A stretch of DNA of 64,000 nucleotides. Source: Pteria penguin. Lineage: Eukaryota > Mollusca > Bivalvia > Pterioida > Pteriidae. The stretch covers positions 29,220,534 through 29,284,533 of the forward strand of contig CM068587.1 of NCBI GenBank assembly GCA_035048485.1, read 5' to 3'. Positions within the stretch are counted from its first letter, which is position 1; every line of letters begins with the position of its first letter. The position numbers and the translations under genes were made by a program. Below are positions 973-15,589 of this stretch, one piece after another. The notes below the pieces were generated by a model. It made no database searches and had not been told where the DNA came from. It was given only the letters and a program-made list of their open reading frames with translations.

Positions 973-1026
973 GTTGTCGAAAAAAAATAAAAATTTTTCA
1001 GGTAAAGTACTAGAACATATTCTGAA

Positions 1027-1230
1027 GTATATATACTAATGTAAACGCGGACGTGTAAGGAAACACCTTTTTGGTAACATAAACATTCTAATGTAAAACA
1101 TAAACAATTTAAATTCAATCTAACATAAAACGCGGACGTGTAAGGAAACACCTTTTTGGTAACATAAACAAAGTCTTGAAATATTCTCATTTTTGCGGAC
1201 GTGTAAGGAAACACCCTTTTTCAGTATAAA
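1027..1230. promoter_or_regulatory. Bidirectional promoter in left inverted repeat, three 20-bp motifs
   Basis: Three copies of GTGTTTCCTTACACGTCCGC lie on the minus strand at 1047-1066, 1132-1151 and 1195-1214. A TATA-like GTATATATAC at 1027-1036 faces the minus-strand gene at 972, and TATAAA at 1225-1230 faces the plus-strand gene starting at 1302. The arrangement is mirrored at the right end. The motif repeats are spaced 63-85 bp, each followed by a conserved TTTTTGGTAACATAAACA-like stretch. Confidence 0.75.
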
Positions 1231-1301
1231 TAATAAGATTTTTTCTAGAGAAGCGCCAGTTTTGAATCGAGATTTTTCGAATCAAGATTTTCGTATTAAA
1301 G

Positions 1302-1832
1302 ATGAGTTCTTTATACAGTATGGAGCAGTTTTCAATTAGATTAAGGGAAATTTCGGAGAAACACAGATTAAAAGCATTGGAGTTGGTGGAGATGGCCGAT
1401 AATTTGGATGAAATTGCTAATGAAATTAGCAATCTAATCGAAAAGAAAAGAGAGGAAGAACAGAAAAAGGAGACAAGAAGTACAGTTAGACAGGTGGTGA
1501 CCTTAAGACCATTTAGCTGGAGGCCCAATCAACATCACGGGCCTCCGAACTACCCGCCACCCCCTCCACCACCACAAGTACCAGTACTGACAGCAGCACC
1601 GGCAAGGCCACCACCACCGGTAAGACCACCACCACCGGCAGCGGCAGCACAACCAGCTCCTGTAGCGACAGAAGATTGGGAGGCTGAAATTCTATCACAG
1701 TCTCCCGAACCTCCGTTCCAGCCGGAACTTTTGCAGTTTACCTCCCGTCCTCTAGCAGCACTTTCTCGTGCTGCTAGAAGACGGGCATTGTCGTGCCCGG
1801 CGTGTGGCTCCCGCAATTGCAGGGGTCACTGA
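1302..1832 (+). CDS. Accessory protein: coiled coil, proline-rich middle, CPxC tail
   Basis: 176-residue product of unknown function. Residues 1-60 are charged and helical (coiled-coil-like, ending in KKREEEQKKE). Residues 75-125 are a proline/alanine tract with runs of prolines. The C-terminus is Arg-rich and ends in CPACGSRNCRGH, which could bind zinc. A TATA box lies 72 bp upstream inside the left inverted repeat. The first AUG downstream is used, and the gene starts just inside the repeat. It ends in a histone-type stem-loop rather than a poly(A) signal. Its tail resembles the ARRHCPLCW end of the right terminal gene, so the two may be related. I do not recognise a known family. Confidence 0.75.
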   Translation: MSSLYSMEQFSIRLREISEKHRLKALELVEMADNLDEIANEISNLIEKKREEEQKKETRSTVRQVVTLRPFSWRPNQHHGPPNYPPPPPPPQVPVLTAAPARPPPPVRPPPPAAAAQPAPVATEDWEAEILSQSPEPPFQPELLQFTSRPLAALSRAARRRALSCPACGSRNCRGH

Positions 1833-1854
1833 GTTCTTTAAAAGAACTAAAAAC

Positions 1855-1888
1855 GGCCCTTTTTAGGGCCACCATATCTTAAGAAAAG
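1855..1888 (+). terminator. Histone-type 3' processing signal (stem-loop plus downstream element)
   Basis: Twenty-two nucleotides after the TGA at 1830-1832 is a perfect 6-bp stem with a UUUU loop, GGCCCTTTTTAGGGCC (1855-1870), followed directly by ACCA and then AAGAAAAG at 1881-1888. The metazoan histone consensus is GGYYYU-UHHH-ARRRCC, then ACCA and a purine-rich element 10-15 nt downstream. No AATAAA occurs between the stop codon and the loop. Confidence 0.8.
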
Positions 1889-1970
1889 TAGCCAAATGGT
1901 CGATGCAATACTACAAAATTGAAAAGTAACTCGAGGGTTGATGCAATAACAAAAACACGGTAAGTCTTAT

Positions 1971-1987
1971 TTTATTATGATTTTATT
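1971..1987 (-). terminator. Poly(A) signals for the minus-strand genes at 2059-2945
   Basis: TTTATT on the plus strand at 1971-1976 and again at 1982-1987 gives two AATAAA hexamers on the minus strand, about 70-90 nt past the stop codon of the gene ending at 2059. This contrasts with the histone-type end of the convergent gene at 1302-1832. Confidence 0.55.
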
Positions 1988-2058
1988 ATGATTTTATTTA
2001 CATAGCAATGGCAGAATGTTTATCATTATTATTTTACATATTTCGACATACAAAATGT

Positions 2059-2334
2059 TTACACAGTCACTGGTCTTAATCTCATGAGTCTATCTTTCAC
2101 TCTATCTAAGGAGTCTTTGAATACATCGTTTCCGAATTTTCGGCACAGATCTTTAGTAAAGAGTTCTAACACGTATAGTTTTGTTTCGGACACTCTTCCG
2201 TCTTTAAACATGGCGATCACTACTTCGTGATAGTCCCTCAAGTTTTTGATTTCGGATAACATTTCTCTCCATTGCGAACGTCTAAGGATGGTTAAAGAGA
2301 ACCAAATCTGCCACTGTAGTAGTCTCGACAACAT
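2059..2334 (-). CDS. Small unknown viral protein
   Basis: 91-residue reading frame, helical and basic, with a hydrophobic start (LLQWQIWFSLTI). It starts 38 nt past the stop codon of the gene at 2373-2945 on the same strand and shares its promoter and poly(A) region, so it may be the second cistron or a piece of the same gene separated by mutation. No recognised domain. Confidence in translation is moderate because an alternative is that the upstream gene once continued into this frame. Confidence 0.45.
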   Translation of the reverse strand: MLSRLLQWQIWFSLTILRRSQWREMLSEIKNLRDYHEVVIAMFKDGRVSETKLYVLELFTKDLCRKFGNDVFKDSLDRVKDRLMRLRPVTV

Positions 2335-2372
2335 GACGGTAACTGATCGAGTTTCTATTACGACTCTGTCTT

Positions 2373-2945
2373 TTAAGAGAGCATTTTTTCGCCTCGATGT
2401 AAGGCTTCGTTATAGTTCCTACACTTCGAACAGATTTCTAACATGGGTTGATTTTGGTGATCTTCTTCCCCGATGCAATCGGGATGAACGGCGAAGTATT
2501 CCACTCGGAACGGCGTATGGTCGTCGTCTTCCGAATCGGATAGTTCTTGATTTTGCGGTTTGCTCATAGTGACATCCTTTTCTTCTTGATTTTGCGGTTT
2601 GCTCATAGTGACATCCTTTTTTTCTTCTTCGTATCGATAGACTCTGTGCATGGATATGATCGTCAAATCTTTCAAAGTCACGATCATTTCTTCCCAAGCA
2701 TCGTATACCAGATCGAATGCCTTGCGAGTGTTTTTGATATTGAGACATTGTAGCAGTGCTTTCAAGTTCACGTTACGCTTTTCAGGTTCGAAGCGTATAA
2801 ATAGATTCCACAACATCCTTTGAATGAGATCACTGGCACACTGGGTGTATACTTCTGCTGGCGACATAGCATAGACGAACTGTAAATTGATCTTGAGGTC
2901 ATTGAGCCCCTGTCCTTTCAGTTCCTCATTCAAGGAATGTAACAT
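2373..2945 (-). CDS. Unknown helical viral protein with a 13-residue tandem repeat
   Basis: 190-residue product. The N-terminal 110 residues look all-helical. Then come two tandem copies of a 13-residue unit (EEKKDVTMSKPQNQ-like; DNA about 2545-2625), an acidic DSEDDDH patch and a C-terminus with CSKC. The upstream frame stays open for some 18 codons beyond the Met used here, but no in-frame ATG is seen there. A minus-strand TATA-like TATATAAAATAG lies at about 3050-3060, and a cluster of AAGGTC half-sites sits further upstream. It is set apart from the structural block and probably belongs to a regulatory or host-interaction class (inference). No family recognised. Confidence 0.6.
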   Translation of the reverse strand: MLHSLNEELKGQGLNDLKINLQFVYAMSPAEVYTQCASDLIQRMLWNLFIRFEPEKRNVNLKALLQCLNIKNTRKAFDLVYDAWEEMIVTLKDLTIISMHRVYRYEEEKKDVTMSKPQNQEEKDVTMSKPQNQELSDSEDDDHTPFRVEYFAVHPDCIGEEDHQNQPMLEICSKCRNYNEALHRGEKMLS

Positions 2946-3049
2946 GCTGGCGAATCTCTGTCTGGCAAGGTGAACATGCTCCGGGTTTGGTGTGTCGAAC
3001 GAAGTATTTATGATGAATGATGATAATGACGAGTCTTGCTTTCTTTCCC

Positions 3050-3290
3050 TATTTTATATATCTGGTTTCGACCTTGAACTTGTACTTGATGACCTTGAAC
3101 TTGTTTTTGGGTTTTTCAAAATGACCTTGAACTTGTACTGAAGGTTCTGGACTTTTCCATACGACCTTGAACTTGGGTTTTTCAAAATAACCTTGAACTT
3201 GTAATGAAGGTTCTAGATTGTTCTGTACTGGATGACCTTTTTTGTCTATACGACCTTGAACTTGTTCTATTCAAATAACCTTGTACTTGA
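3050..3290 (-). promoter_or_regulatory. Promoter with six or seven nuclear-receptor-like half-sites
   Basis: GACCTTGAACTTG, or a one-base variant, occurs at 3070, 3091, 3123, 3163, 3189 and 3252, with a weaker copy near 3276. On the minus strand each reads CAAGTTCAAGGTC, containing the TTCAAGGTC(A/G) site bound by monomeric NR5A/ERR-type receptors. A TATA box at about 3055 lies between the cluster and the gene starting at 2945. The repeats may have arisen by local duplication, but the core is the conserved part. Confidence 0.55.
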
Positions 3291-3320
3291 GACAAACAAG
3301 AAGAATATGTTTTGAATCAA

Positions 3321-3326
3321 TTTATT
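3321..3326 (-). terminator. Poly(A) signal for the structural gene block
   Basis: TTTATT on the plus strand gives AATAAA on the minus strand, about 220 nt past the last stop codon (3544) of the protease region. The intervening 3' untranslated stretch contains the duplicated 100-bp segment. Confidence 0.5.
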
Positions 3327-3401
3327 GTCCCGCTAACACAACGTAAAGAACAAGGATTAGGACCGTCCCTTTGTTCTTCACTTACAATGCATATGTACAA
3401 T

Positions 3402-3501
3402 CAAATATCTGTCTCACTACTTTGTTTAAACTCTGCCATTACGGCTCGGAGCGATGTCTCCATCGTCCAAGTTTGGTTATTTCGGATACTCGACAAATAT
3501 T
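3402..3501 (-). repeat. 100-bp segment duplicated in inverted orientation (copy 1)
   Basis: The reverse complement of this interval is almost identical to about 13,200-13,300, the 3' end of the zinc-knuckle gene. It contains the short hairpin CGATG-GAGA-CATCG. Here it lies downstream of the protease block and about 75 nt before an AATAAA, so in both places it sits near the end of a transcript. Confidence 0.85.
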
Positions 3502-3543
3502 TTTGTTTGATTTATACATTTTAACATAATATCATACATAATA

Positions 3544-3741
3544 TCATACATAATTAATCAAAGCTAAAACTACAATGAACAATTGAATGGCTAAAATCAT
3601 GAGTATGGAAGAAGTCAAGTCAAGGCAGACGTCACAGCAGCGGCGGGATATACGAGATTCGACGCTTTCCGGCACAAGCAAGTCTGTTTCTTCATCGTTA
3701 AAGGTCTGAGTTTTCTCGGGATCACGTTCTCTCGATACCAT
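3544..3741 (-). CDS. Possible small membrane protein overlapping the protease 3' end
   Basis: A 65-residue frame overlaps the last 43 codons of the protease in another frame. It has an acidic, charged N-terminal half, then CCDVCLDLTSS and a clear transmembrane segment (SILMILAIQLFIVVLALI) at the very end. The hydrophobic run is more protein-like than the protease's own tail in the same DNA, which suggests this frame is real, either as a separate overlapping gene or as the normal end of the protease after a frameshift. It could be an anchor for a tail-anchored product. Confidence 0.45.
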   Translation of the reverse strand: MVSRERDPEKTQTFNDEETDLLVPESVESRISRRCCDVCLDLTSSILMILAIQLFIVVLALINYV

Positions 3742-4217
3742 TGGTAAATGAAACGATCGTTGTCTTCTTTCTTCCATGTCTTCTTGGACGGGATCGGTAG
3801 GTGATACGACATCAGCCAGCGCATCATATCTGGTGTGGGTACCTTTCGACTTCTGTGGTGTAGGTAATAGATACAGTAATGTCCGCACACGGGGGTATCC
3901 CAACTTTGATAAGATACGGTATTGTAGACTAGGCTTCGACTTTTGGATCGCATGAAACGTACGATATCGCCATATGCCCATGGTGGTAATCCGTAGGAAT
4001 CGAAATATTCGGCTATCCCGTCCTCTCCGAAGTGAACACACACCCAATGTTCTCCCGGTTTATCAGCTTCGTCCGTGTTGATGACGAAAGATCGTCCGTC
4101 GCTTCCAATGGGTAAGGCGTCTCGAGGATACATGCCTCCAAAATGAGGACTCACGTATGGATCGCGAGACAGAATATCGTACAGTTGATGGGTATCCAGG
4201 GCTTTAATAGTCGACAT
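3615..4217 (-). CDS. Adenain-type cysteine protease (virion maturation)
   Basis: Processes virion precursor proteins during maturation in adenoviruses and Polinton-like viruses. The catalytic set is visible in order: His in GEHWVCVHF (residue 73 of the longer frame), Asp in EYFDSYGLPPW (89), Gln in SYQSW (120) and Cys in PVCGHYC (127). The open frame reaches 4265, but I prefer the Met at 4217 (MSTIKALDTHQLYD), because family members start close to this motif and it leaves only a 14-nt overlap with the capsid gene upstream. The length of about 200 residues fits the family. No lesion is seen in the catalytic region; the last 25 residues overlap another plausible frame. Confidence 0.9.
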   Translation of the reverse strand: MSTIKALDTHQLYDILSRDPYVSPHFGGMYPRDALPIGSDGRSFVINTDEADKPGEHWVCVHFGEDGIAEYFDSYGLPPWAYGDIVRFMRSKSRSLVYNTVSYQSWDTPVCGHYCIYYLHHRSRKVPTPDMMRWLMSYHLPIPSKKTWKKEDNDRFIYQWYRENVIPRKLRPLTMKKQTCLCRKASNLVYPAAAVTSALT

Positions 4218-5535
4218 CGATTTCCCTCTGTTTGTTGATCTGTATGACGTTGTCGAATTCTGCATACACGATGCAATTGATGACGGTCGGTAACGCTGTG
4301 CCGAACTGAAGTTCGATGCGCATGTTACCCGTTTTTACCATGTGGAATTTATCGGCTACGTGTCCGTTCTGGTCCTTGGTGAAGTCGAATCCCCAAATGG
4401 CGAAACCGTTCTTGTATTCCTGGTAGGATATGTCTGGAGCCCAATCGTCGCCGATCCTTCCCAGGGATTGGTATAAGGACATGTAAGAACGCAGGTATAG
4501 ATTGTCGTCAAAGTTCGGTTCGTAGTGTTTGGTGTGTTGGACGTCTCCGTTCAAACTGATTTCTATTTTCTCCAGATCGAAGTGTCCGAAATCGAAGGGG
4601 TTCTGATTCAAAGCTCCGTTGTAGCCTGCATTTTTCGTCATGCAAAAGAATACCCGTTTGGGTAACTGTCCGGAAAACACGTTGTCCGTGATCTTCGAAC
4701 GAGTGCCCTGTGGAATGGTAAAGGATTTCACTTCCACGCGTCTTATGGGGTATTTGGCCGTCGTGGTGTTTAACATCTGATTGACTCCTAACAGTGTCGT
4801 AGGCATGAGTCTCACTTTGCGCACGAATAAGATCATCTGTTCGATGTGAATGTTGCCGTCCTCGTTTCCCATCAGACAAAACGACGCACGAGCCCTGTTG
4901 AATCTCAAGCGGACGTCCACGCCGTTGACGATGAAATTCCCTTGTTGAAACATGTCCAGATGTATGCGATCGTACAATTCCAACCATTTACTTTGATCGA
5001 TCTTCTCGTGACGTTTGATCAGACCGCTGTTGTAGCCGGCGGCAGTCTTGTCATCCTCGTACGGGTTGATGGCATTCATGCGTCCAGCTTGATCCGTGAA
5101 CCATAAGTCGGTACTACTGATCTGTTTCCTGAGGGTCTCAGGAGTGTACGAGAGTAAAGTCTCCAAATAAGCTCGATACGGATACGTGTCGGTGCTCGGG
5201 GTGATGGTCTTGCCGTTCATGGACATGTCAATCTGCGAAAACATGCTGTGCATGATGTTGTTGACGGGAGTGACCCGCATGTCGGCGGCTAAAGCCGTTC
5301 CGTCCGCTTTCGTGACCTTGATTTTCATGTAGACGAAAGTCTGAGAAAGATCCAAAAAGTCCTCCCCGTGTCCCTTGATATCGAATTCGATCGGGGCTGT
5401 CGGATTTCGATTGTCGATGGAACTCACGTAATAAAATTCTTCCCATTGGGCTTTCTCCAACACCGTCATGGTTTGTGGAACTCGATTCAACTGTAAGCCC
5501 TCCGTCGAACACTCGCAGGATTCTCTGTGCATCAT
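4204..5535 (-). CDS. Major capsid protein (Polinton-like, probable double jelly-roll)
   Basis: 443-residue intact frame. The N-terminal region has TAPIEFDIKGHGEDFLDLSQTF-type sequence, followed by alternating beta-like segments through to the C-terminal FGTALP...VYAEFDNVIQI. This is the protein commonly annotated F54H12.2-like in invertebrate genomes and regarded as the capsid protein of adintovirus/Maverick elements; the double jelly-roll fold is inferred, not seen. It is the longest intact structural gene. It lies between the core-protein gene, whose stop codon overlaps its ATGATG start, and the protease, the usual virion-gene neighbourhood. That it stays open while neighbours are broken suggests recent inactivation of the element. 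Confidence 0.85.
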   Translation of the reverse strand: MMHRESCECSTEGLQLNRVPQTMTVLEKAQWEEFYYVSSIDNRNPTAPIEFDIKGHGEDFLDLSQTFVYMKIKVTKADGTALAADMRVTPVNNIMHSMFSQIDMSMNGKTITPSTDTYPYRAYLETLLSYTPETLRKQISSTDLWFTDQAGRMNAINPYEDDKTAAGYNSGLIKRHEKIDQSKWLELYDRIHLDMFQQGNFIVNGVDVRLRFNRARASFCLMGNEDGNIHIEQMILFVRKVRLMPTTLLGVNQMLNTTTAKYPIRRVEVKSFTIPQGTRSKITDNVFSGQLPKRVFFCMTKNAGYNGALNQNPFDFGHFDLEKIEISLNGDVQHTKHYEPNFDDNLYLRSYMSLYQSLGRIGDDWAPDISYQEYKNGFAIWGFDFTKDQNGHVADKFHMVKTGNMRIELQFGTALPTVINCIVYAEFDNVIQINKQREIDVDY

Positions 5536-6152
5536 CTTAATCGAATATGTCTAACGTTCTTCTCTTGATAGATCTCAGTCTTTTCTTGGCAGATTTCAGT
5601 TTTCTCTGGATTGGTCCTGCGGATATTAGCGCACCCAACTTTCTTCTGACACGTCCTTTTCCAGACTGACGTTTCTTTCCGACAGCTCTTCTTTTTATGG
5701 GAGCCCGGGGCACCTGCTTTCTTGACCGGATTTGCACGTTTGACTCCTGCCGTGGTGGGAGTTCTTTTGACGGGATTATGACGTTTGACGACTTCTGTGA
5801 GAGCTCGTCTGACACCTTCCTCGGTCGGTCTGGCTCTCTTGGGTTTCGGCATCACCACGCTGGTGAATACGTCGGAAGGTGCCGACGACAGAATGTTGCT
5901 AGCCGTTTCTCTGCCGTGATGTAAAAAGGCATCTTTCCAGTTTCTTTTTCGATTCACGATGTCTAGTCCCGCGTTGAGTGCTCCTTTCAATACTTTCCTA
6001 CCCCCTTTTTTGAGAACGGACAAGGCTATATCCTTAAATCCCGATCCCGTCTGCCCTCTTCTTCGTCGTCCTTGACCTCCTTGTCCCATGAGTGCGGGTA
6101 AAATCGCTGGTAATACCGACTCAGCTATCGCCAATCCGGGGCCCATCATCAT
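5532..6152 (-). CDS. Basic virion core-like protein, C-terminus in two possible frames
   Basis: 206-residue frame. It opens with a hydrophobic stretch (MMMGPGLAIAESVLPAILPALMGQGGQ), then a GSGFKDIALSVLKKGG helix region, then a Lys/Arg/Pro-rich tail with KRTPTTAGVKR-type repeats, typical of DNA-binding or pVI/pVII-like virion proteins. An overlapping frame at 5537-5815 gives an even more regular Arg/Lys tail ending in RTLDIFD, the kind of ending I associate with this family, so a one-base shift near 5700-5800 is likely. Gene spacing is tight: its start overlaps the penton-like region and its stop overlaps the capsid start. DNA binding is inferred from composition. Confidence 0.65.
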   Translation of the reverse strand: MMMGPGLAIAESVLPAILPALMGQGGQGRRRRGQTGSGFKDIALSVLKKGGRKVLKGALNAGLDIVNRKRNWKDAFLHHGRETASNILSSAPSDVFTSVVMPKPKRARPTEEGVRRALTEVVKRHNPVKRTPTTAGVKRANPVKKAGAPGSHKKKSCRKETSVWKRTCQKKVGCANIRRTNPEKTEICQEKTEIYQEKNVRHIRLR

Positions 6153-6225
6153 TTTGGCGCAGACCTATCAGGGGACCCAAGCCCCGACCTCTCTGACGGG
6201 CCACCCCTCGATGAACAATCATGGT

Positions 6226-7217
6226 TTAAATGTAGCGCTTCTGACGAAAATGTAGTTTCATGATGACTTTGCCGTTGAAGAATCCCCAATCCGTCGTATA
6301 TATGGATGTCCAAGGTATCGAGGAGGGTTTTGGCCAGAGGTATGTATTCCACCAGGCGCGGTTCCCAATGTCCGTGCGAGTTTGCATCGGTGTCGACCCT
6401 TTGTTGTTTGAAAGGTACGATGCGTAAGAGCTGTAGGTTCTTGGATCCGACGATCTGTGATCGCGTGATGTTGTTATACAGGTACAGGGCACTCATTCCT
6501 ATGTAGAGATCCGGAGTCACTACGCCGTAGGTCGTCTTGGTCATCCACGAGGGATCCGAATCGATCGTGAATCCCAACATGTGCACCAGAGCCGGACATA
6601 ATCGGACGGGATAGATGAATTTGGTACCGTGATCGGGTCCCTTGACCAACAACTGTACTCGATTGAAGGTCTTCAAATACTCGAACTTCAGCTCTCTGAA
6701 ATCGGTCTCGTTTTCGTCTGCCAACCCTTTCAAGATGCTTCCGAATCCGTGTTTAAGTACGTGATTCAATTCCGCCAATACTCCTTCGATGGAACTGTAA
6801 AATCCCGTCATGATTTTGACTCGGTAGGTCACGCCCACGATGGGGATGCTGAAACTGGGGGGGGGGGGGAGGGGGCGATGGGAACACGTATGTCGGGACG
6901 GTCGGCGGCACTGAACGGTAAGCTGTTGGTGAGCTTTTCAATCTTGAAACGCTCAGAAGGACTCGGTGTCACGGAAAGTAACTGGGTACGATGATCTCCA
7001 TGTAGTTGCCTCCCTCTTTGACGTTTTCCACGGTGATGGGATAAACGATCTCGCTCAATCCTACTTCCCATTCCCCGTCGTCTAAGTCCATCATCTGAGG
7101 TAAGTGTGTACGGAAAGAAGACAGGGTGTTGTTCGGAAAGGTTTCCAAAGATCCATCGCTGGGTAATGTCATGTAGAAACTCATGTTAACGTCTTCTCCA
7201 ATCGCGATCGCATCCAA
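6226..7217 (-). pseudogene. Penton-like minor capsid protein, broken by frameshifts
   Basis: The N-terminal 82 residues (MSFYMTLPSDGS...GEWEVGLSEIVYP) match the start of the minor capsid/penton-like protein found beside the capsid gene in these elements. The frame is lost near 6985, again at a 13-G run (6857-6869), and again near 6290. Frame 6149-6838 holds the central part (VKIMTGFYSSIEGVL...), and a third frame ends naturally at 6226 with a GKVIMKLHFRQKR motif. All pieces are collinear. The homopolymer and the single-base nature of the shifts could reflect decay or consensus errors. Role: vertex capsid component (inferred from family and position). Confidence 0.75.
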
Positions 7218-7248
7218 TTTGATTGTTTCATCTTGGGACTGGGCATTA

Positions 7249-7530
7249 TTACCCCAAACTTCCGCTCAGCATCACCATCCAAAATTCTCTGTTGTCTTGT
7301 CCCAAAGCCAGACAAATGATGCCTGCCAAGATGACCGTCATCGCCGCGAACGCTTGGGTGAAAAATACGATCTCGCTTCTAGGTACCGCTTCGCCACACC
7401 ACTTCCATGAATGTACGATGTTATTGTTGTTGTTGTTGTTGATAGGTGGTATCGGACTCTCCTCTACGTCAATGCGATGAGGTTCTGATGAGGAATCCAT
7501 GAATCGAAACTGGGTGGATAACCTTTCCAC
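7249..7530 (-). CDS. Small viral membrane protein, probably frameshifted at its end
   Basis: 93-residue frame with a poly-Asn tract from a GTT/AAC microsatellite, then CGEAVPRSEIVFFTQAF leading into a hydrophobic segment (AAMTVILAGIICLALG) and a second weaker one. The CxxxVPRSE...FF pattern plus one or two membrane helices is a standard small gene next to the integrase in this element family. The stop comes directly after SGSLG, and a different frame continues for about 15 codons with an MPSPKMK-like tail, so the natural C-terminus has probably been lost to a one-base deletion near 7248. Function unknown; perhaps a virion membrane or entry component. Confidence 0.6.
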   Translation of the reverse strand: MERLSTQFRFMDSSSEPHRIDVEESPIPPINNNNNNNIVHSWKWCGEAVPRSEIVFFTQAFAAMTVILAGIICLALGQDNREFWMVMLSGSLG

Positions 7531-8587
7531 CTGACTAACGCTTCTCGAATGACGCGATTCTTTCCGATGCGGCGTTTTCTAGTTTCGATCACCTTTTCGA
7601 CTTCGTAGACGTCGTCCGACTTGATCACTTTCTGAAGTTCGCTTTCGTAAAACGTTCCTTCCAACTGTTCGCCGTGATCGTCTTCGAGGACGTAGACGTA
7701 CGGATAACGCCCCGTTACTCGACGTTTGTTGGTAAAGAGTTCCGTCGTCCAATTCGGTAAGTATCCCTTGGTAAACACGTGCTTGACTTTACTGATGCGC
7801 ACTCGATCTCCGACTTTGAACTTGGGTGGTTTCCCTTTTTTAGGTCCGAGGTTCTCGTAAGCGTATTGCCACACGTCGATGACGTTAGAGGGATTCACGT
7901 CGGCCGGTGCCCGTCCGATGGTCGAGTGACGGGATGTGTTGTAACTCTTCACGAATCTAGGTAAGACGTCCACGTATCGTCGAGTTCGCTTGTGAGTGAA
8001 ATATTTCCACATGCGTGCTTTCAAAGTCCTTTGAAATCGTTCCACCATGCTGGCTTTCGTATCGGTGTTGTTCGTGGTAAAGAAGTGAATGTCTCGTTCT
8101 TTTAACATGCGTTGAAAATCCTTGTATAAAAATTCTTGCCCTTATCCGATTGAAAACGTCTCGGATGTCGAGACTTGGCTCTTTTCAAGATGTTTAGAAA
8201 TCCTCAAATCATTTCCTTTCCAGTTTTGTTTTTCAGAGGTTCTACCCAGGCATACTTGGAAAACACGTCGATGACGCACAAGAGAAACGTCATCCCGTCG
8301 TTGTCGTCTTTGAGGTTTGACACGTCTGCTAGATCGGCTTGCCACTGTTCGTCCATGGTGGTCACCATGGTACGATTGCGTGGAAATCTACGTCTGATGG
8401 GTTTGTGAAGCGTATAAGTCGATTGCTCTCTCAGCCATTCTTCTACGTCTTGAACTTTAAGGAAACGGGTGCTAAACGTTTGGCTTGTCGGTACAGGTGT
8501 CGAACTCCTCCATATCCACCAGGTTGTCCCGGGTCGTAAAAGATGTCGCGTAATAGATCGGATAAGATTAACTGCCTCCGCCTAGCC
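7464..8587 (-). pseudogene. Retroviral-type integrase with C-terminal chromodomain, disrupted
   Basis: DDE integrase that would insert the viral genome. The N-terminal part starts at ATG 8587 and contains an HHCC-like beginning and a first catalytic Asp in a WQADLAD motif. The second catalytic Asp is in an FQSDKG motif. The Glu sits in KASMVERFQR within the intact 214-residue frame 7464-8108, which ends in a chromodomain (YEVEKVIETRK...VRWKGYPPSFDSWIP). Lesions: a frame change at about 8455-8460, an in-frame TGA at 8204-8206 and another frame change at about 8122-8130. The start overlaps the end of the upstream gene (8568). Inactive as read. Confidence 0.9.
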
Positions 8588-9431: not shown

Positions 9432-9482
9432 TTCTTCGTATAGAGCGTTAGGAACAAGACCATCTTTCGCGCCATGTTTTGT

Positions 9483-9845
9483 TTAACGTCCACCACCCGC
9501 TAATCCTCCCAGTACGGGTCCTAATAATGCAGGAAGTAGTGGAAGTAAAGGAAATATTCCTCCGGTCTGTCGTATCAACGTTTTTCGTCGATCTTTGATG
9601 CTTTTACCCGGTTTGACGAGTAGTCTCAACACCTGCTTCGTTGGCGCTAACTTGGCTTTCTGATGAGGAGTTAAAGGTACCACGCCTTTTAATACGTTCA
9701 AGATACATTCGCACAATTTGCAGATGCAGCTGTCTGGAGCTTCTCGTAGCATGGCCTTTTAAAACTTTTTGGAGTAAGAGGGATTTCCCAATAAACGGAT
9801 GAAATCCGCATGAGCTCGTAAACCTGCCGTTTCCTTTTTAACCAT
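9483..9845 (-). pseudogene. pX/mu-like small virion protein with an internal stop
   Basis: The frame from ATG 9845 reads an N-terminal helix (HADFIRLLGNPSYSKK), hits an in-frame TAA at 9759-9761, and continues in the same frame as LREAPDSCICKLCECILNVLKGVVPLT, a basic middle, and a hydrophobic Gly/Leu/Pro tail (GGIFPLLPLLPALLGPVLGG). This layout is the small pX-like protein that accompanies capsid genes in adintovirus-type elements. Only the downstream 89 codons from Met 9752 are open. A minus-strand TATA box lies at 9911-9916. A diverged paralogue is fused to the polymerase module in the next gene upstream. Confidence 0.7.
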
Positions 9846-9910
9846 GATGATGATGTTTCTCAGACTATGTGTCTTTCAGTAATGACACCATGTCGTATGT
9901 GTCGTCTCCT

Positions 9911-9916
9911 TTATAA
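9911..9916 (-). promoter_or_regulatory. TATA box for the pX-like gene
   Basis: TTTATA on the plus strand reads TATAAA on the minus strand, about 66 nt before the ATG at 9845. It supports 9845 rather than 9752 as the original start. Confidence 0.5.
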
Positions 9917-9934
9917 TATTTTTTGTGCAAAACT

Positions 9935-12046
9935 TTATACAGGTACCCAAGAGGAGGAAGAGGAGGAGGATGAGGAGGATCCACTGTCTCTTCTGAGTCT
10001 CAAAGGGGGCATGGGTTTCTTGAAAGCCTTGAAATAAGGCTCCACGTTAGCACCGAAGTTACGATTAGCCGCTTTTAACGCCATATGTGCTGCTGCACTC
10101 ATGATGGGCGGTGAATTGTTACGTCTTCGATTAGGTTGCGGTGCTCTTCTCTGACGATTAGGCTGTGCTCTTCTCTGTCTTCTCCGACGTTTAGGCTGTG
10201 CTCTTCTCTGTTTTCTCTGACGCTTGGGTTGCGGTGTTCTTCTGACACCGCGTCTGAGGGGAGGATTCTCCAAGGGATTTCTGTTACGTACTCGGTAAAA
10301 ACGCTTATTGTCGTTTTCACGTTGCGGCCATTGCATCATGTTGCGAATGATGACCCCACCCAAGAATCCAGCTCCACCTCGTTTCAAGATGAGACGTCGT
10401 CTTTCGTCGGGATCCGTGTTCCGATCGGCTATCGCCTGTAAGATATCGAAATGTTTCTTGACGAATTTTTCCGTCGGTTTGGTCATGGGCATGCTTCCGT
10501 TGATCATGTTCCTGGCCCCCATGCTGAACCAATTCAATAGAGATTTACGACCCTCCTCCAGTAGAAATTGTCTTCGTCTGGCATCTTTAGTCGTTTTCAA
10601 CTTTCTCAAGAGTTCTATCAATTTTCCCGAAGTTCTCGGCCGTGATCCTGGCATCTCGTCGGTTTGTCGAATAATGACAAACTTCTTAGGTTTAGGTTTA
10701 CGTTGTACGTAACAGAGATGGTCCTGTTCCACCACGGTCTTACAGATGGAACAGACGTGCTCTTTATCGCCGCAGCGGTGTATTTTCATCAGTACTTTAC
10801 TCATCCAACTTCCACAATCCCGGCATCTCGTCATGAGGTCGCATATGCTCTTTCCCACTTTGTTGGGTTTTAAATGGTTCCAATAACACTGCATGTTGGG
10901 AAAATGTCCTTTGCAGCTCTGACACGTGACCTTAGAATCGTCCTGGGGGCACGGTGGTGAATTCAAACAGTAGTTACACCTCACAGGACATTTCGTGCGA
11001 TGATCTTCCTTGTGGGTATACCCGACGTCGCAAAAGTCGCAGTAATGTTGACGTTCGATCAAACCAGTCATAGACGTGATGGTATCGTAGTGCTGGTTCG
11101 AATACAGGATATTCAGCATGGTGGGTCTCATGCTGTTTCTCACGTCCCCCTTGTACAGTAACTGTAGTTTTATCTTCTTAGCTTCTGTCAACTGATGGTG
11201 GATTTTCAATCTGTACTGTGGACACAGGACCGTCTGGAATTTACCCCATTCTACAGGTCCACACCCATGCTCTATGAACACGCCCGCTTCCTGACATAGT
11301 GATTTAGCTGCTCTTTCTTGATCACGGAATCTATCGGGAACTATCATACGAAACCATTTCTTTTTCCATTCTTGCATCTCTTTTGGGTCCGTGGGTTTCT
11401 GGGTTTGTAGACGGGCGACCACGATGGCTCTAGCTAGGCACATGTTGTCGGAATCGTTTACGATCCGAACGATGGATCTCTTGTCTTTCCTAAAATCCTC
11501 TTTATCGGCATGCAGATGTTTTGCCTTGTTACCTCCCGTTCCATAAGGCATCTCGATGTGAATGACGTCTATCGTTGTTTGCCCGTCTTCTAACTTAAAG
11601 TCTTCATTACTCTGTTGTACTTTCTGTATTTCGGCCAAGACCATTTCGCTAGACAAGTGTTGACTCGTGGTGAAAGGTACCCATACTTCGGACTTCAGAG
11701 AAGGGTGATTGATGATCAGTCTGATGTAGTCTTTGTCTTTGGCATGGCAATTACTTTTCAAATCGTTTACTAACGAATTCATGACCCTAGGTAGAAACCT
11801 CGGCAGGTGACCTGGAGATATCTCTCGAGTCAATGCTTTAAACTGTACGTTGTATCGTATACCACTGGTCTTGAATTTTCTGGACTTGTTTGATCGATTC
11901 AACTTGATGGTATAGAAATCTTGCGGTGTCTTGTTCATTTCCCGCAGGCGACGTCTAGCTCCTTCTATTCCACCATGTCTTTGTATCCATCGTCGTAGAA
12001 GCGTGCGAAACTTTCTCGATCTCAATAATTCTCTCGTGACTGGCAT
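9935..12046 (-). CDS. Polymerase-N-terminal zinc module fused to pX-like domain
   Basis: Open frame of 717 codons from 12088; I prefer Met15 (12046, MPVTRELL), because a TATAAAAAA box at about 12,095-12,100 is too close to the first ATG. Residues 15-345 match the N-terminal region of the protein-primed PolB of this element family (KRSIVRIVN..DNMCLARAIV). Residues 350-459 hold zinc-binding Cys/His pairs (CDFCDVGYTHKEDH, CNYC, CQSC, CRDC, CSIC). Where the exonuclease should start, the frame instead passes at about 465-487 into a second pX-like domain (residues 488-582: LIELLRKLKTTKDARRR...INGSMPMT...GGAGFLGG). An Arg/Gln/Pro repeat tail and a Ser run follow. No polymerase motifs are present, so it cannot polymerise DNA. 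It is either a deletion chimera or a new fused protein, for example a DNA-binding virion component. Confidence 0.75.
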   Translation of the reverse strand: MPVTRELLRSRKFRTLLRRWIQRHGGIEGARRRLREMNKTPQDFYTIKLNRSNKSRKFKTSGIRYNVQFKALTREISPGHLPRFLPRVMNSLVNDLKSNCHAKDKDYIRLIINHPSLKSEVWVPFTTSQHLSSEMVLAEIQKVQQSNEDFKLEDGQTTIDVIHIEMPYGTGGNKAKHLHADKEDFRKDKRSIVRIVNDSDNMCLARAIVVARLQTQKPTDPKEMQEWKKKWFRMIVPDRFRDQERAAKSLCQEAGVFIEHGCGPVEWGKFQTVLCPQYRLKIHHQLTEAKKIKLQLLYKGDVRNSMRPTMLNILYSNQHYDTITSMTGLIERQHYCDFCDVGYTHKEDHRTKCPVRCNYCLNSPPCPQDDSKVTCQSCKGHFPNMQCYWNHLKPNKVGKSICDLMTRCRDCGSWMSKVLMKIHRCGDKEHVCSICKTVVEQDHLCYVQRKPKPKKFVIIRQTDEMPGSRPRTSGKLIELLRKLKTTKDARRRQFLLEEGRKSLLNWFSMGARNMINGSMPMTKPTEKFVKKHFDILQAIADRNTDPDERRRLILKRGGAGFLGGVIIRNMMQWPQRENDNKRFYRVRNRNPLENPPLRRGVRRTPQPKRQRKQRRAQPKRRRRQRRAQPNRQRRAPQPNRRRNNSPPIMSAAAHMALKAANRNFGANVEPYFKAFKKPMPPLRLRRDSGSSSSSSSSSSWVPV

Positions 12047-12090
12047 CGTGACTGATAATTCGCGTTTTAATCTCGATCGCGTTTTCACGG

Positions 12091-12330
12091 GTTTTTTATA
12101 CGATTCCTATGACCTTGAAATGTCAAGGTCATTTGTAAAATTTTATTTCAATGTCAAGGTTGATGTGATCTAATACAAGGTTAACTTTAGAATAGAAAAG
12201 TCTAGAACATTCATTTCAATGTCAAGGTTATTTGTTAAATTTTATTTCAATGTCAGATTTTAAGGGTGAAGGACAGATTTTAAGGGTGAAGATCATTCAT
12301 ACCGTTTAAAAAGACGAGAGTAAACGATAG
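12091..12330. promoter_or_regulatory. Divergent promoter with palindromic AAGGTCA sites
   Basis: Lies between the fusion gene (minus) and the zinc-knuckle gene (plus). ATGACCTTGAAATGTCAAGGTCAT at 12,109-12,132 is an inverted pair of CAAGGTCA half-sites; further TCAAGGT copies follow near 12,155 and 12,225 inside a repeated TTATTTCAATGTCAAGGT unit. TTTTTTATA at 12,092-12,100 is a TATA box for the minus strand. TTTAAAAAG near 12,305 may serve the plus strand. CAGATTTTAAGGGTGAAG is tandemly duplicated at about 12,254-12,291. Confidence 0.55.
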
Positions 12331-12368
12331 ACTTCATTCTCGCTTTCATCACGCAAGAGAAAACAACC

Positions 12369-13310
12369 ATGGCTCAACCGAGGTTTCCTACTGCTACTGT
12401 TACTGCTGGTTCTTCTGCTGCTACCTTCATAGGCGAAACGACCATGCATCAACCAGAGATTCCTACCACCTTCATTAAAGATTTGATGCGTGACGAAGGG
12501 ATGCAGGACGATGATACTCTCATGTTACCTTCGAACGAAGAGGCTCTACTGACTCAATTGAAGAGCCTTGTCGCACAGAAACATCAGGTCGAGATGCAGA
12601 CCCTAAAAGAAAACCAAGATATCTTGACGAGTTCGCTAGCTACACTGCAAAAGACCGTGGAAGAAACCAAACTAGAAACCGTGCAAACCAATGTAGGCAT
12701 GGGTGAAATGAACTTACACGTTGCTGATGCCCAAAATATGTTACGTGAGATCAAGAAACGAATGGCTAACAAGAGGTACCACGATAATGATGATGACGAT
12801 GATACAGGCGAACCTAGCCGTAAGAAATTTAAATACAACAAAGTGGAAACGAACACTCCTAATAATGTGTATTTCCATTGTCAACAACCTGGACATTGGT
12901 TTAGACAGTGCCCTCAGAGACAACAACAACAAGCGATCAAGGGAAATTGTTTTCGATGTAACGAAGAAGGACATTGGGCTAACGAGTGTCCGCAGGCTCG
13001 ACAACCATCTAGTCCTGTAATCACGGAACCACCGAGTCCGAAAACCACTCCGAGTATGCCTCCTCCGAACACTCCTAACATGAAAGCTCCCAAGAAAGTA
13101 AAGGTTGCAGAAAAAAAAGGAGACGATACCCAAGAAAACGATGACCAAGAAAAACATCGCTTTGATCATGTAATGACATTATGTGTAAACAACAGAAAAC
13201 ATCTGTCGAGTATCCGAAATGACCAAACTTGGACGATGGAGACATCGCTCCGAGCCGTAATGGCAGAGTTTAAACAAAGTAGTGAGACAGATATTTTATT
13301 GATCATGTAA
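12369..13310 (+). CDS. Gag-like zinc-knuckle protein of the viral element
   Basis: 313-residue intact product. It has an N-terminal Thr/Ala-rich region, a coiled coil at about residues 55-145, an acidic DDDDD run with a basic KKFKY signal, then two zinc knuckles. The second (CFRCNEEGHWANEC) is canonical. The first (YFHCQQPGHWFRQC) has Tyr where the first Cys should be, so it probably binds zinc poorly. A Pro/Ser/Lys-rich tail follows. The last 45 codons run through the duplicated 100-bp segment, so the original stop was probably near 13,180. The start has a good context (ACCATGG). It has its own divergent promoter and AATAAA. Likely nucleic-acid binding (inferred from knuckles); role in the virus unknown. 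Confidence 0.8.
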   Translation: MAQPRFPTATVTAGSSAATFIGETTMHQPEIPTTFIKDLMRDEGMQDDDTLMLPSNEEALLTQLKSLVAQKHQVEMQTLKENQDILTSSLATLQKTVEETKLETVQTNVGMGEMNLHVADAQNMLREIKKRMANKRYHDNDDDDDTGEPSRKKFKYNKVETNTPNNVYFHCQQPGHWFRQCPQRQQQQAIKGNCFRCNEEGHWANECPQARQPSSPVITEPPSPKTTPSMPPPNTPNMKAPKKVKVAEKKGDDTQENDDQEKHRFDHVMTLCVNNRKHLSSIRNDQTWTMETSLRAVMAEFKQSSETDILLIM

Positions 13311-13330
13311 TGACATTATGTGTAAACGAT
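13161..13330 (+). repeat. 100-bp segment (copy 2) flanked by 28-29-bp direct repeats
   Basis: TTGATCATGTAATGACATTA and the bases after it up to GTAAAC occur both at about 13,162-13,190 and at 13,301-13,329. Between them lies the 100-bp segment whose reverse complement is at 3402-3501. Only the second direct repeat is read in the frame that gives the stop codon. The structure looks like an inserted or recombined block that lengthened the zinc-knuckle protein. Confidence 0.75.
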
Positions 13331-13382
13331 ATTTTTATTGATTATGTGTAAACGACAATTTTATTGATCATGTAATTATGTG

Positions 13383-13388
13383 AATAAA
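13383..13388 (+). terminator. Poly(A) signal of the zinc-knuckle gene
   Basis: AATAAA lies 73 nt after the TAA at 13,308-13,310. No histone-type stem-loop occurs here. Confidence 0.6.
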
Positions 13389-13482
13389 ACATGTCTTACT
13401 TTATCTCTATCGTTTGTCGTATTTTCTTAGTTAAGTTAAAAAAAAACTCGAGTTCTTTTCGTGACTGTGTGACGAAAATAGC

Positions 13483-13679
13483 TCGACCTTCACTTCTGAA
13501 TACATGAAAAAGGTGATGCCTTTGACGTCCGCAATTTGACAGTATATAGTCATTTACCCTGTATTAAGACTTCATTTCAATCGACCTTCACTTCTGAATA
13601 CATGAAAAAAGGTGATGCCTTTGACGTCCGCAATTTGACAGTATATAGTCATTTACCGTGTATTAAGACTTCATTTCAA
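13483..13679 (+). promoter_or_regulatory. Tandemly duplicated 98-bp promoter with ACGTCCGC cores
   Basis: Two near-identical copies (13,483-13,579 and 13,581-13,679), each with ACTTCTGAATACATGAAAAA, a GATGCCTTTGACGTCCGC motif (cores at 13,525-13,532 and 13,624-13,631) and a TATA-like AGTATATAGTC. The second copy ends at the start codon at 13,681. The ACGTCCGC core is shared with the 20-bp motif of the inverted repeats. Confidence 0.75.
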
Positions 13680-13680
13680 A

Positions 13681-13965
13681 ATGGATGTTGAAATAAGAGG
13701 TGTAATCACATTCAGAGTGGGAGACGAGGATATCAGTATCCATATTGGTCATCCGGGATGGAACCCTAGGCGTTTGTTTTGGTGGAGGATATTTAGACAA
13801 TTACTATCTAATAACCTCAATCACACCAACGACCAAGAAATGGCAGAAGAGTACGATCAGGAAGAAGAAGAAGAAATTATGGAATATAGCAGGCAGCAAG
13901 ACCAGGAAATAGAAAGGCTATTAAACTATGACCATCCAAGTTACCCTCCAGAGAGAGAAGAATGA
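13681..13965 (+). CDS. Small acidic accessory protein
   Basis: 94-residue product. The N-terminal half is beta-like and aromatic (GVITFRVGDEDISIHIGHPGWNPRRLFWWRIF); the C-terminal half is extremely acidic and helical (EEYDQEEEEEIMEYSRQQDQEIERLL). The start is fixed by the duplicated promoter ending right at the ATG. The transcript ends in a histone-type stem-loop 23 nt after the stop codon. No recognised family. It belongs to the accessory group sharing promoter core and 3' signal, and may be regulatory (inference). Confidence 0.7.
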   Translation: MDVEIRGVITFRVGDEDISIHIGHPGWNPRRLFWWRIFRQLLSNNLNHTNDQEMAEEYDQEEEEEIMEYSRQQDQEIERLLNYDHPSYPPEREE

Positions 13966-13988
13966 GAAGATTTTTAACATCATAAAAC

Positions 13989-14023
13989 TGCCCTTTTAAG
14001 GGCCAACCATATCTTTAGAAAAG
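13989..14023 (+). terminator. Histone-type 3' processing signal
   Basis: TGCCCTTTTAAGGGCC at 13,989-14,004: a 5-bp stem (the outermost sixth pair is mismatched) closing a UUUA loop, followed by AACCA and then AGAAAAG at 14,017-14,023. Same spacing as the other three copies in this element. Confidence 0.75.
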
Positions 14024-14204
14024 TAACCATAAGGTTGAAAACATTTAAACGAGTTCGTATCATTATTTCTAAAAAAAATGTTACCCGTTATACATTATAC
14101 ATTATACAGAAAAAACTTTTTTTTAAAAAACTTACATCTTTTATTCCTCGTCTTATTTTATTTCCTGAAAAGTCATAGTAAATAATTGTTGCATTCAACA
14201 AATG

Positions 14205-14244
14205 ACTACTTTTCGTAAAACTTTGGATGGTCCTTAAAAAGACC
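14205..14244 (-). terminator. Histone-type 3' processing signal (minus strand)
   Basis: On the minus strand, 22 nt after the stop codon at 14,267, GGTCTTTTTAAGGACC (14,244-14,229) forms a 6-bp stem with one G-U pair and a UUUA loop. It is followed by ATCCA and a CGAAAAG element near 14,214-14,208. The stem sequence differs from the other copies while pairing is kept, which argues for selection on structure. Confidence 0.75.
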
Positions 14245-14266
14245 TTTTTATTTTGATGTTGTTGAT

Positions 14267-14704
14267 TTACATCTCTTCGTCTTCTTTATTAGCTAACACC
14301 ATCTTAACTAACTCTCTGAGGCAGTGGCGTGTTTTCCCCAGCTCTTCTATTAGTACTTTCTGATTCGTCTCTAACACGTGAATGCGTCGCTGCAGCGCCC
14401 TTGTTGTTGTTAAACGGTTCTGCTGCGTTGAACTGATCTTAGGCAGCGCCGGCAGTGCAATGTTGGTATTCGGCTGCTGCTGCTGTTGCTTTTGCTGCTG
14501 TTGTTGTTGTACCTGTGCCTGTGTCTGTTGTTGTTGCGGCTGGGCTTGCTGCTGCTGTGAAAGTTGTGCCTGTTGTTGTGGCTGTTGATTTACTGTAGTG
14601 GGGATAGATGTTGTTTGCCCCCCTCCTGTCTTGTCCTGCATAGCATCGTCCTTCAATAACATTTCTAAAATGGTCTCGAAGTCAATATTGGTATTTAAAC
14701 TCAT
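14267..14704 (-). CDS. Gln-rich coiled-coil accessory protein
   Basis: 145-residue product. A short N-terminal helix (ETILEMLLKDDAMQD), a long Gln-rich tract at about residues 38-80, and a C-terminal coiled coil (LQRRIHVLETNQKVLIEELGKTRHCLRELV) ending in KEDEEM. The N-terminal LLKDDAMQD resembles FIKDLMRDEGMQD of the zinc-knuckle protein. TATAAA on the minus strand at 14,778-14,783 lies within the right inverted repeat, 74 nt upstream. The architecture suggests a transcriptional or assembly adaptor, but this is a guess from composition. Confidence 0.7.
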   Translation of the reverse strand: MSLNTNIDFETILEMLLKDDAMQDKTGGGQTTSIPTTVNQQPQQQAQLSQQQQAQPQQQQTQAQVQQQQQQKQQQQQPNTNIALPALPKISSTQQNRLTTTRALQRRIHVLETNQKVLIEELGKTRHCLRELVKMVLANKEDEEM

Positions 14705-14714
14705 TGTTGAAAGC

Positions 14715-15312
14715 GTAAATCTTGATTCGAAAAATCTCGATTCAAAACTGGCGCTTCTCTAGAAAAAATCTTATTATTTATACTGAAAAAAAAGGGTGTT
14801 TCCTTACACGTCCGCAAAAATGAGAATATTTCAAGACTTTGTTTATGTTACCAAAAAGGTGTTTCCTTACACGTCCGCAAAATGATAATATTTCAAGACT
14901 TTGTCATAGTACACTTAGGTTACCAAAAAGGTGTTTCCTTACACGTCCGCGTTTTATGTTAGATTGAATTTAAATTGTTTATGTTTTACATTAGAATGTT
15001 TATGTTACCAAAACGGTGTTTCCTTACACGTCCGCGTTTACATTAGTATATATACTTCAGAATATGTTCTAGTACTTTACCTGAAAAAATTTAATTTTTT
15101 TTCGACAACATGGAAGCGAGTATCAAAATCACGATTGATTGGGAGAGAAGGTTGATCTACACGATCCATGAGCCGGCCATCGGCCGTGTTATCTTACGAG
15201 ATAGAGAGTCGGGCGATGATATCAAAATTGAGCCACAAGTACCACTCAACGCCACGGTCGTGAAAAGAGAACCCGAGGAAGAGAGACAAGATCATCCACC
15301 CGGTAGGAGAAT
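14715..15312. repeat. Right inverted repeat of the viral element
   Basis: Reverse complement of 770-1291, differing by few substitutions and by one extra promoter-motif unit of about 70 bp (around 14,880-14,950). The inner end lies just before the start codon region at 14,704 and the outer match ends at 15,312, where the left copy is cut by DIRS sequence. Confidence 0.9.
14778..15054. promoter_or_regulatory. Bidirectional promoter in right inverted repeat, four 20-bp motifs
   Basis: GTGTTTCCTTACACGTCCGC occurs at 14,796-14,815, 14,859-14,878, 14,931-14,950 and 15,016-15,035. TATAAA on the minus strand at 14,778-14,783 drives the Gln-rich gene; GTATATATAC at about 15,046-15,055 lies 55 bp before the plus-strand gene at 15,110. 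Both target genes end in histone-type stem-loops. Confidence 0.75.
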
Positions 15313-15418
15313 AACACCACCCTGCCGGGTGGGTCACTTGGTAGATCGCCTACTAAATACTACAGCTAGACGAAGTGAGAGGAGAAAGGCACGTCGCCAC
15401 TGCCCCTTATGCTGGTAA
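15110..15418 (+). CDS. Terminal-repeat accessory protein with Arg-rich CPLCW tail
   Basis: 102-residue product, complete only in this right copy. The N-terminus looks beta-rich (ITIDWERRLIYTIHEPAIGRVIL). The middle is charged (GDDIKIEPQ...KREPEEERQDHPPGRR). The C-terminus is Arg-rich and ends in RRHCPLCW, possibly half of a zinc site. It is reminiscent of the CPACGSRNC tail of the product of 1302-1832. The start is fixed by the TATA element 55 bp upstream and by conservation in the left copy. A histone-type 3' signal follows. Function unknown. Confidence 0.7.
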   Translation: MEASIKITIDWERRLIYTIHEPAIGRVILRDRESGDDIKIEPQVPLNATVVKREPEEERQDHPPGRRITPPCRVGHLVDRLLNTTARRSERRKARRHCPLCW

Positions 15419-15435
15419 GGGACAGGGAAAAAAAC

Positions 15436-15470
15436 AGCCCTTTTAAGGGCTAACCATTTCTTTAGAAAAG
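15436..15470 (+). terminator. Histone-type 3' processing signal
   Basis: AGCCCTTTTAAGGGCT at 15,436-15,451: a fully paired 6-bp stem with UUUA loop, 17 nt after the TAA at 15,416-15,418, followed by AACCA and AGAAAAG at 15,464-15,470. The outer A-U pair replaces the G-C pair of the first copy, another compensatory difference. Confidence 0.8.
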
Positions 15471-15589
15471 TAAACTCAAGGTTAACAAGTACAATTTCCA
15501 CATTCAATCCAAGGTCAAGGACACTTTTTGAGTTCACCTTTAACCTACTATAGTACGTTTAGGTCAACTCAGTACACTCAGGGGTCAAA

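Follow-up and report, generated by a model that had tools for sequence, protein, structure and literature searches.

In the matched text of two papers, replication-dependent histone messenger RNAs (mRNAs) are described as unique among known animal mRNAs in having a stem-loop at the 3′ end in place of poly(A) (PMC6303110; PMC10388802). Comparable extracts describe Hydractinia histone genes with a stem-loop 6–17 nucleotides (nt) past the stop codon, a downstream element, no poly(A) signal and S-phase expression (PMC5011920), and report for the bivalve Lucina a stem-loop in all histone mRNAs and purine-rich elements only in some (PMC6210712). Here we analyse a stretch of 64,000 nt (64 kilobases, kb; hereafter the window) from the bivalve Pteria penguin (assembly GCA_035048485.1, contig CM068587.1, positions 29,220,534–29,284,533), which carries an integrated DNA virus of the Polinton/Maverick type. 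Four small accessory genes of this element, here g1 to g4, are each followed by a histone-type stem-loop, and the lineage very probably ends these genes of its own in the 3′-end signal that its host uses for replication-dependent histones.

Histone-type stem-loops in the virus and in its host

An earlier sequence-only reading of this DNA had placed a stem-loop after each of four viral open reading frames (ORFs); all four were found at the positions and on the strands it gave, in the sense of the preceding ORF (Table 1). It put them 17–23 nt past the stop codon, and the measured gaps are 22, 23, 22 and 17 nt for g1 to g4. The A(C)CCA-like flank and the purine-rich element at histone-like spacing that it described are present after every stem, the element taking the general form (A/C)GAAAAGTA(G/A) 12–14 nt further on. 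Stem bases differ between the genes with pairing mostly kept, again as it had said, bar an outer T–C pair in g2 and one T–G pair in g3, which also has an ATCCA flank. These blemishes are confined to the window's copy of the element; the other 15 of 16 copies are free of them, with stem arms GGCCCT/AGGGCC in g2 and GGTCCT/AGGACC in g3.

Scanning the whole window against Rfam with cmscan (E ≤ 5) returned 47 matches over all families, among which Histone3 (RF00032) contributed exactly four, the sites described above, at 33.3, 28.4, 26.6 and 22.7 bits (E values over 4227 families of 8.4e-6, 5.9e-4, 0.0029 and 0.077). The degenerate consensus NGYYYU-UUUH-ARRRCN, composed with the sites already known, has four occurrences in 64 kb, all at these sites, against a mean of 0.16 and a maximum of 3 in 300 dinucleotide shuffles; joined to a CCA flank and GAAAAG it occurs four times in the window and never in the 300 shuffles. 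Predicted folds contain the stem in all four 3′ ends, with five pairs in g2. Over whole pieces of 67–68 nt, a fold clearly more stable than that of shuffled sequence is confined to g1 and g3 (z −2.8 and −2.1, versus −1.2 for g2 and −0.6 for g4).

Genome-wide searches covered the host genome (838 megabases, Mb, window included), in which 75 of 119,946 Histone3 candidates were scored and 73 exceeded the cut-off. Some of these loci were read, with histones identified by their sequence: H4, H1, H3 and H2B (a 6.7-kb repeat, C1), H2A (C4) and an H1-like gene (C9) all end in a stem-loop followed by (A/C)GAAAAGTAG, and no ORF was found ahead of one further match (L015, C14). The sea-urchin-type downstream element CAAGAAAGA brought up only unrelated papers in the listed parts of the literature matches. 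Between stop codon and stem-loop lie 26–38 nt in the host C1 and C4 genes versus 17–27 nt in viral copies with an intact stop. Aligned with one another, seven viral and eight host 3′ ends have 21 invariant columns, including all eight of GAAAAGTA. Because stem-loop type, flank and downstream element agree across these invariant columns, the viral signal is, judged by its sequence, this host's histone signal and not a generic hairpin. There is thus strong support for the central claim of the sequence-only reading, that an integrated DNA virus has genes with histone-type 3′ ends: host histone genes share the signal and copies of the element keep it.

Established histone biology suggests how such ends would work. 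Host SLBP would bind the viral stem-loop, the U7 small nuclear ribonucleoprotein (snRNP) would pair with the downstream element (A/C)GAAAAGTA(G/A), and CPSF73 would cut between the two. The viral mRNAs would remain without poly(A) and would therefore, we propose, accumulate and be translated mainly while DNA replicates; absence of poly(A) and restriction to S phase had been put forward earlier, and we infer both in the same way. A fuller reading, which we hold to be somewhat probable, is that g1–g4 form a regulon under the host histone mRNA pathway through a shared upstream box and host-matched SLBP/U7 ends, in which viral DNA synthesis would keep the mRNAs alive and the match between downstream element and U7 would serve as a host-specificity lock. 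If true, this would break the rule by which, among animal mRNAs, those of histones alone end in this way.

A separate observation concerns a host gene. Fifty-one scored stem-loop matches, at a spacing of ~1.39 kb, belong to a tandem array (C2:70.59–70.68 Mb and C2:80.2 Mb; L008–L010 and L016–L018) of a non-histone ORF of 116 amino acids (aa), shorter in some units, that starts MKATRICKKSPAK and ends SDSEMED. The array units read carry a histone stem-loop and CGAAAAGTAG 20–21 nt past the stop, a 46%-identical relative at C3:31.08 Mb (L005) has the same kind of 3′ end, and Pfam gave no convincing family for the 116-aa product. Going by the loci read, the host may here have a gene that encodes no histone and carries a 3′ end of histone type.

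Retention across copies and rival explanations

The check proposed with the earlier reading, a scan of related elements for stem-loops relative to stop codons, was run on the host genome and places them after the same four genes in close copies. Genome matches, which are lower bounds and include gene fragments and the window itself, amount for g4 to at least 150 scored of 219 candidates (145 without an internal stop), and to at least 107 for g1, 101 for g2 and 100 for the capsid protein; at least 55 capsid matches are near full length at 91–100% identity. The full signal is kept at 30 of the 30 top-scoring g4 loci and the stem-loop at 24 of 24 loci picked to span 72–100% aa identity, so that pooling the sets, which have two loci in common, gives a stem-loop at 52 of 52 distinct loci. 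It is likewise present at all 30 top-scoring g1 loci. Sixteen of the 30 top g4 loci extend to g2 and g3 and 12 to g1. Within these, g2 has its stem-loop no more than 25 nt from the stop in 15 of 16 copies (L039 has lost the stop and kept the stem-loop), g3 has it in 16 of 16, and g1 has it within 25 nt in 11 of 12 (L036 has lost its stop); the 12-copy g1 set excludes the window's copy, which the other g1, g2, g3 and g4 counts include. As an observation on the genome itself, the g4 and capsid matches indicate a large, partly recent Polinton expansion.

Several results weigh against the view that these genes use the host histone signal. Rfam at its gathering score of 34 bits has no Histone3 match in the window, because all four stem-loops fall below it (best 33.3); the g4 ends of two other element copies, at 41.6 bits, lie above it. 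A search of the host for U7 small nuclear RNA (RF00066) found nothing, with controls likewise silent. Past the g3 stem-loop AATAAA stands at 66–67 nt in 16 of 16 copies, with a second at 83–84 nt in 13 of 16, and exact GAAAAG, present at 50 of the 52 g4 loci, is changed at two. Older copies keep the signal less often: among 20 old or decayed g1 places (protein match in 19 on the first pass), 13 have both stem-loop and downstream element by score, under thresholds fixed afterwards, one has them by eye on the other strand and six do not. Six divergent g2/g3 places have the g2 signal in four and the g3 stem-loop in two, in pieces that may not always extend to g3. One divergent copy, L007, has intact g3 and g4 ends and a broken 5′ arm in g2, and a distant Polinton (capsid identity 39%) has no stem-loop in one 2-kb piece beside its capsid gene, a piece that may lie outside the relevant gene region. 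Finally, many copies are young and owe some of their conservation to common ancestry, so plain retention counts overstate the case.

Capture of a host histone 3′ end is the likely origin of the signal, and the question becomes whether the ends are still used or are passengers: a single captured end, duplicated onto four genes, could have spread with the element and have no present function. The g1, g2 and g4 ends are indeed alike over 58 nt (71–86% to the reference), many copies are recent and the signal is lost at six of 20 old g1 places, all of which a passenger would explain. Yet stem and flank are not the same in the g3 and g4 types, which still keep pairing, the G–C second pair, the U–A top pair, the UUU loop and the downstream element; most old g1 copies retain their ends at 35–82% protein identity over longer matches; and the odd g2 and g3 pairs of the window are absent from 15 other copies. 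In the 24-locus g4 set the outer stem pair is G–C in 15 and A–U in nine, and mean conservation is 0.95 for the stem-loop and 0.97 for GAAAAGTA versus 0.85 for the spacer and 0.89 for the next 40 nt, a modest difference. The 15-row alignment of viral and host ends has 98.8% of its cells paired and four of six pairs changed on both sides (reached by 2 of 500 shuffles), pair counts that lean towards structure because intact sites were hand-picked, to the exclusion of L007 with its broken g2 end; none of 500 shuffles reaches its covariation score. Passengers without function are, in our view, improbable.

Use of the host signal could also stop short of cleavage, the stem-loop binding SLBP for translation or stability while the mRNAs are mostly polyadenylated further on. 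H2A.X genes use both kinds of end, according to the matched text of PMC7807067, and the AATAAA found after g3 in 16 of 16 copies fits such a scheme. In the window g3 has three AATAAA within 450 nt, one of them just before its stem-loop; g1, g2 and g4 have no AATAAA/ATTAAA-type signal within that distance. Neither hexamer occurs within 200 nt past the stem-loop in 30 of 30 g4, 15 of 16 g2 and 11 of 12 g1 copies, and it is these 56 of 58 copies, together with the retention of a downstream element useful only for cleavage, that make general polyadenylation quite improbable. Host histone-type ends behave similarly, six of seven lacking both hexamers over 200 nt (the exception is H4, with ATTAAA at 167 nt). 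Because AATAAA follows its stem-loop in every copy examined, g3 probably has a dual 3′ end, with poly(A) as a fallback, and for g1, g2 and g4 the stem-loop is, from the same signals, probably the sole 3′ end.

In mimiviruses and their virophages, RNA ends at a palindrome and receives poly(A), and the hairpins are not known to have a fixed sequence. An ending of that type might be expected of an element whose capsid protein is related by fold to those of virophages, and a second small palindrome does stand directly after the g1 stop. Against this, the viral ends follow the host histone signal in loop, in flanks and in downstream element, and other viral gene-block ends carry AATAAA instead (Table 1), which renders this explanation very improbable. 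Elsewhere in the window one AATAAA lies 288 nt beyond the putative protease ORF, and the minus-strand genes in the middle of the block have no poly(A) signal within 450 nt of their stops, except for an ATTAAA 241 nt after a 716-aa ORF. That the stem-loops are DNA-level palindromes for replication, packaging or recombination near the element ends is barely credible: g4 does lie within the terminal inverted repeats, where palindromes are common, but g2 and g3 lie outside them, and the stem-loops are in sense to the ORF, 17–27 nt past the stop in measured copies, with an asymmetric loop and the downstream element on the same side.

The four genes, their box and the element

Near their C-terminal ends g1 and g4 have in common a CPxC motif and a basic stretch. 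No convincing family was found for g1–g4 in Pfam and PHROGs, or for g1 and g4 in NCBIfam, and g1 and g4 have no outside protein homologue at E ≤ 10. Matches of g3 to TFIIA and the like were rejected, as they look like low-complexity Q-rich matches. An early regulatory role for the four products is a guess. The box GCGGACGTNNAAGGNANCACC, a motif derived from its own sites, has nine copies in 64 kb, all beside g1–g4, versus 0.03 expected, and none in an 8-kb piece of host histone DNA. Since it adjoins all four genes, it suggests that they are controlled together as a single set, perhaps an early one.

Two further hairpins belong to g1. A long, near-perfect one lies within its coding sequence (1744–1785; z −7.1, with 0 of 200 shuffles as stable) and resembles mir-16 at 30.5 bits, under the gathering score; the mir-16/mir-15 matches at 1740–1789 were accordingly discarded, their source being this strong hairpin inside g1. 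The palindrome GTTCTTTAAAAGAAC directly after the g1 stop (1833–1847) has the same or a slightly different length in close copies.

Table 1. Features of the window, numbered from its first nucleotide.
Feature	Position	Strand	Evidence
g1 histone-type stem-loop, GGCCCU UUUU AGGGCC, then ACCA	1855..1870	+	Rfam match, consensus pattern, predicted fold
g2 histone-type stem-loop, outer T–C mismatch, then AACCA	13989..14004	+	Rfam match, consensus pattern
g3 histone-type stem-loop, GGUCUU UUUA AGGACC, then AUCCA	14229..14244	-	Rfam match, consensus pattern, predicted fold
g4 histone-type stem-loop, AGCCCU UUUA AGGGCU, then AACCA	15436..15451	+	Rfam match, consensus pattern
g1 histone downstream element, AGAAAAGTAG	1882..1891	+	Aligned to host ends
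g2 histone downstream element, AGAAAAGTA	14017..14025	+	Aligned to host ends
g3 histone downstream element, CGAAAAGTA	14207..14215	-	Aligned to host ends
g4 histone downstream element, AGAAAAGTA	15464..15472	+	Aligned to host ends
g1, 176-aa proline-rich ORF, basic stretch and CPAC near end	1302..1832	+	ORF translation
g2, 94-aa acidic ORF	13681..13965	+	ORF translation
g3, 145-aa Q-rich ORF	14267..14704	-	ORF translation
g4, 102-aa ORF, basic stretch and CPLCW at end	15110..15418	+	ORF translation
Box GCGGACGTNNAAGGNANCACC, two copies upstream of g2	13512..13532, 13611..13631	-	Motif search
Left terminal inverted repeat, truncated at 770 within an incomplete g4 in reverse orientation, whose start codon lies near 972; boxes at 1047, 1132, 1195	770..1300		
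Right terminal inverted repeat region, containing the g4 start; boxes at 14795, 14858, 14930, 15015 (all -)	14707..15312		
Major capsid protein, modelled with a double jelly-roll fold	4204..5535	-	Homologues, structure model
Integrase C-terminal part with chromodomain, rve_3 weak	7464..8108	-	Pfam
Three AATAAA past the left minus-strand gene block, first bases 1998, 1987, 1976	1971..1998	-	
AATAAA 72 nt past the zinc-knuckle (CCHC) gene at 12369–13310	13383..13388	+	
Two AATAAA past g3 (first bases 14162, 14145), also in other copies	14140..14162	-	

The label Polinton-like virus, under which the element was first described, is better replaced by Polinton/Maverick, given an integrase piece with chromodomain, a double-jelly-roll capsid protein and terminal inverted repeats. 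In the integrase ORF, a C-terminal piece, the chromodomain is above its cut-off (E 1.4e-8) and rve_3 below its own (E 0.016). A model of the capsid protein (predicted local distance difference test score, pLDDT, 78.6) has the double-jelly-roll capsid proteins of iridovirus, Sputnik and mavirus among its best matches. The protein has 1155 homologues, and those with a named organism among the 120 matches listed come from oysters and a clam. Searches of IMG/VR with the capsid protein, a capsid alignment and the 716-aa ORF found no relatives, and the element-specific stem-loop pattern had no matches there. The canonical 19-nt histone pattern was exact in two IMG/VR contigs, which are phage-like and carry it inside reading frames, and was dismissed as chance.

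Many g4 matches in the genome form opposite pairs, often 18–19 kb apart (16–25 kb among those compared), from which it follows that each inverted repeat of such a copy contains g4. The window's copy is ~4 kb shorter than many of these spacings, and on that account the gene for the protein-primed DNA polymerase B (PolB) may have been deleted from it; no Pfam polymerase was found in the 716-aa ORF. The protease, like a PolB N-terminal region, is putative and named by resemblance.

Further features of the element were noted. A 120-nt inverted duplicate (92%) of the zinc-knuckle gene end lies on opposite sides of it (3393–3512 and 13187–13306), and short CCTTGAACTTG-like repeats, partly inverted, flank the minus-strand gene block (3069–3290 and 12119–12255). 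Read by eye, its flanks (770 and ~15600) resemble a DIRS-type retroelement, with recombinase-like reading frames on both sides, and the element apparently sits within such a retroelement or is joined to it.

Comparison with known systems

Among the matches listed (open-licence literature, titles and abstract starts), none describes viral or Polinton genes that end in the histone manner. A survey of animal viruses from 2024 notes, in its matched part, that adomaviruses have histone-like proteins, with no mention of stem-loops (PMC11071296). Libraries made from poly(A)-selected RNA would be expected to miss g1–g4, which could explain why these genes have gone unseen. If the reading holds, the histone 3′-end pathway would be usable for non-histone messages and would offer viral genes an S-phase switch that needs no viral protein. 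The viral copies would also provide, for comparison with the host signal, natural variation in stem, flank and downstream element.

Set beside other Polinton/Maverick elements and adintoviruses, the element is alike in its terminal inverted repeats, its chromodomain-bearing integrase piece and its double-jelly-roll capsid. It differs in that four of its accessory genes have histone-type ends and a box in common, of which there is no mention in the listed parts of the literature matches. The host 116-aa gene family is like the viral genes in that a stem-loop of their type follows an ORF encoding no histone, and unlike them in being arranged in tandem; the array pieces read showed no viral gene, none having been searched for. 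The closest likeness is to the metazoan histone 3′ end. The viral carriers encode no histone, g3 keeps AATAAA, and processing of the viral ends is deduced from sequence; what they have in common with that signal is the 6-bp (base pair) stem, the UUUN loop, the G–C second pair and U–A top pair, an A-rich 5′ flank, an ACCCA-like 3′ flank, a short distance to the stop, usually no AATAAA and, with the histone genes of this host, the GAAAAGTA downstream element. Signals of this class are known, and what appears to be new is their occurrence on four non-histone genes of a virus.

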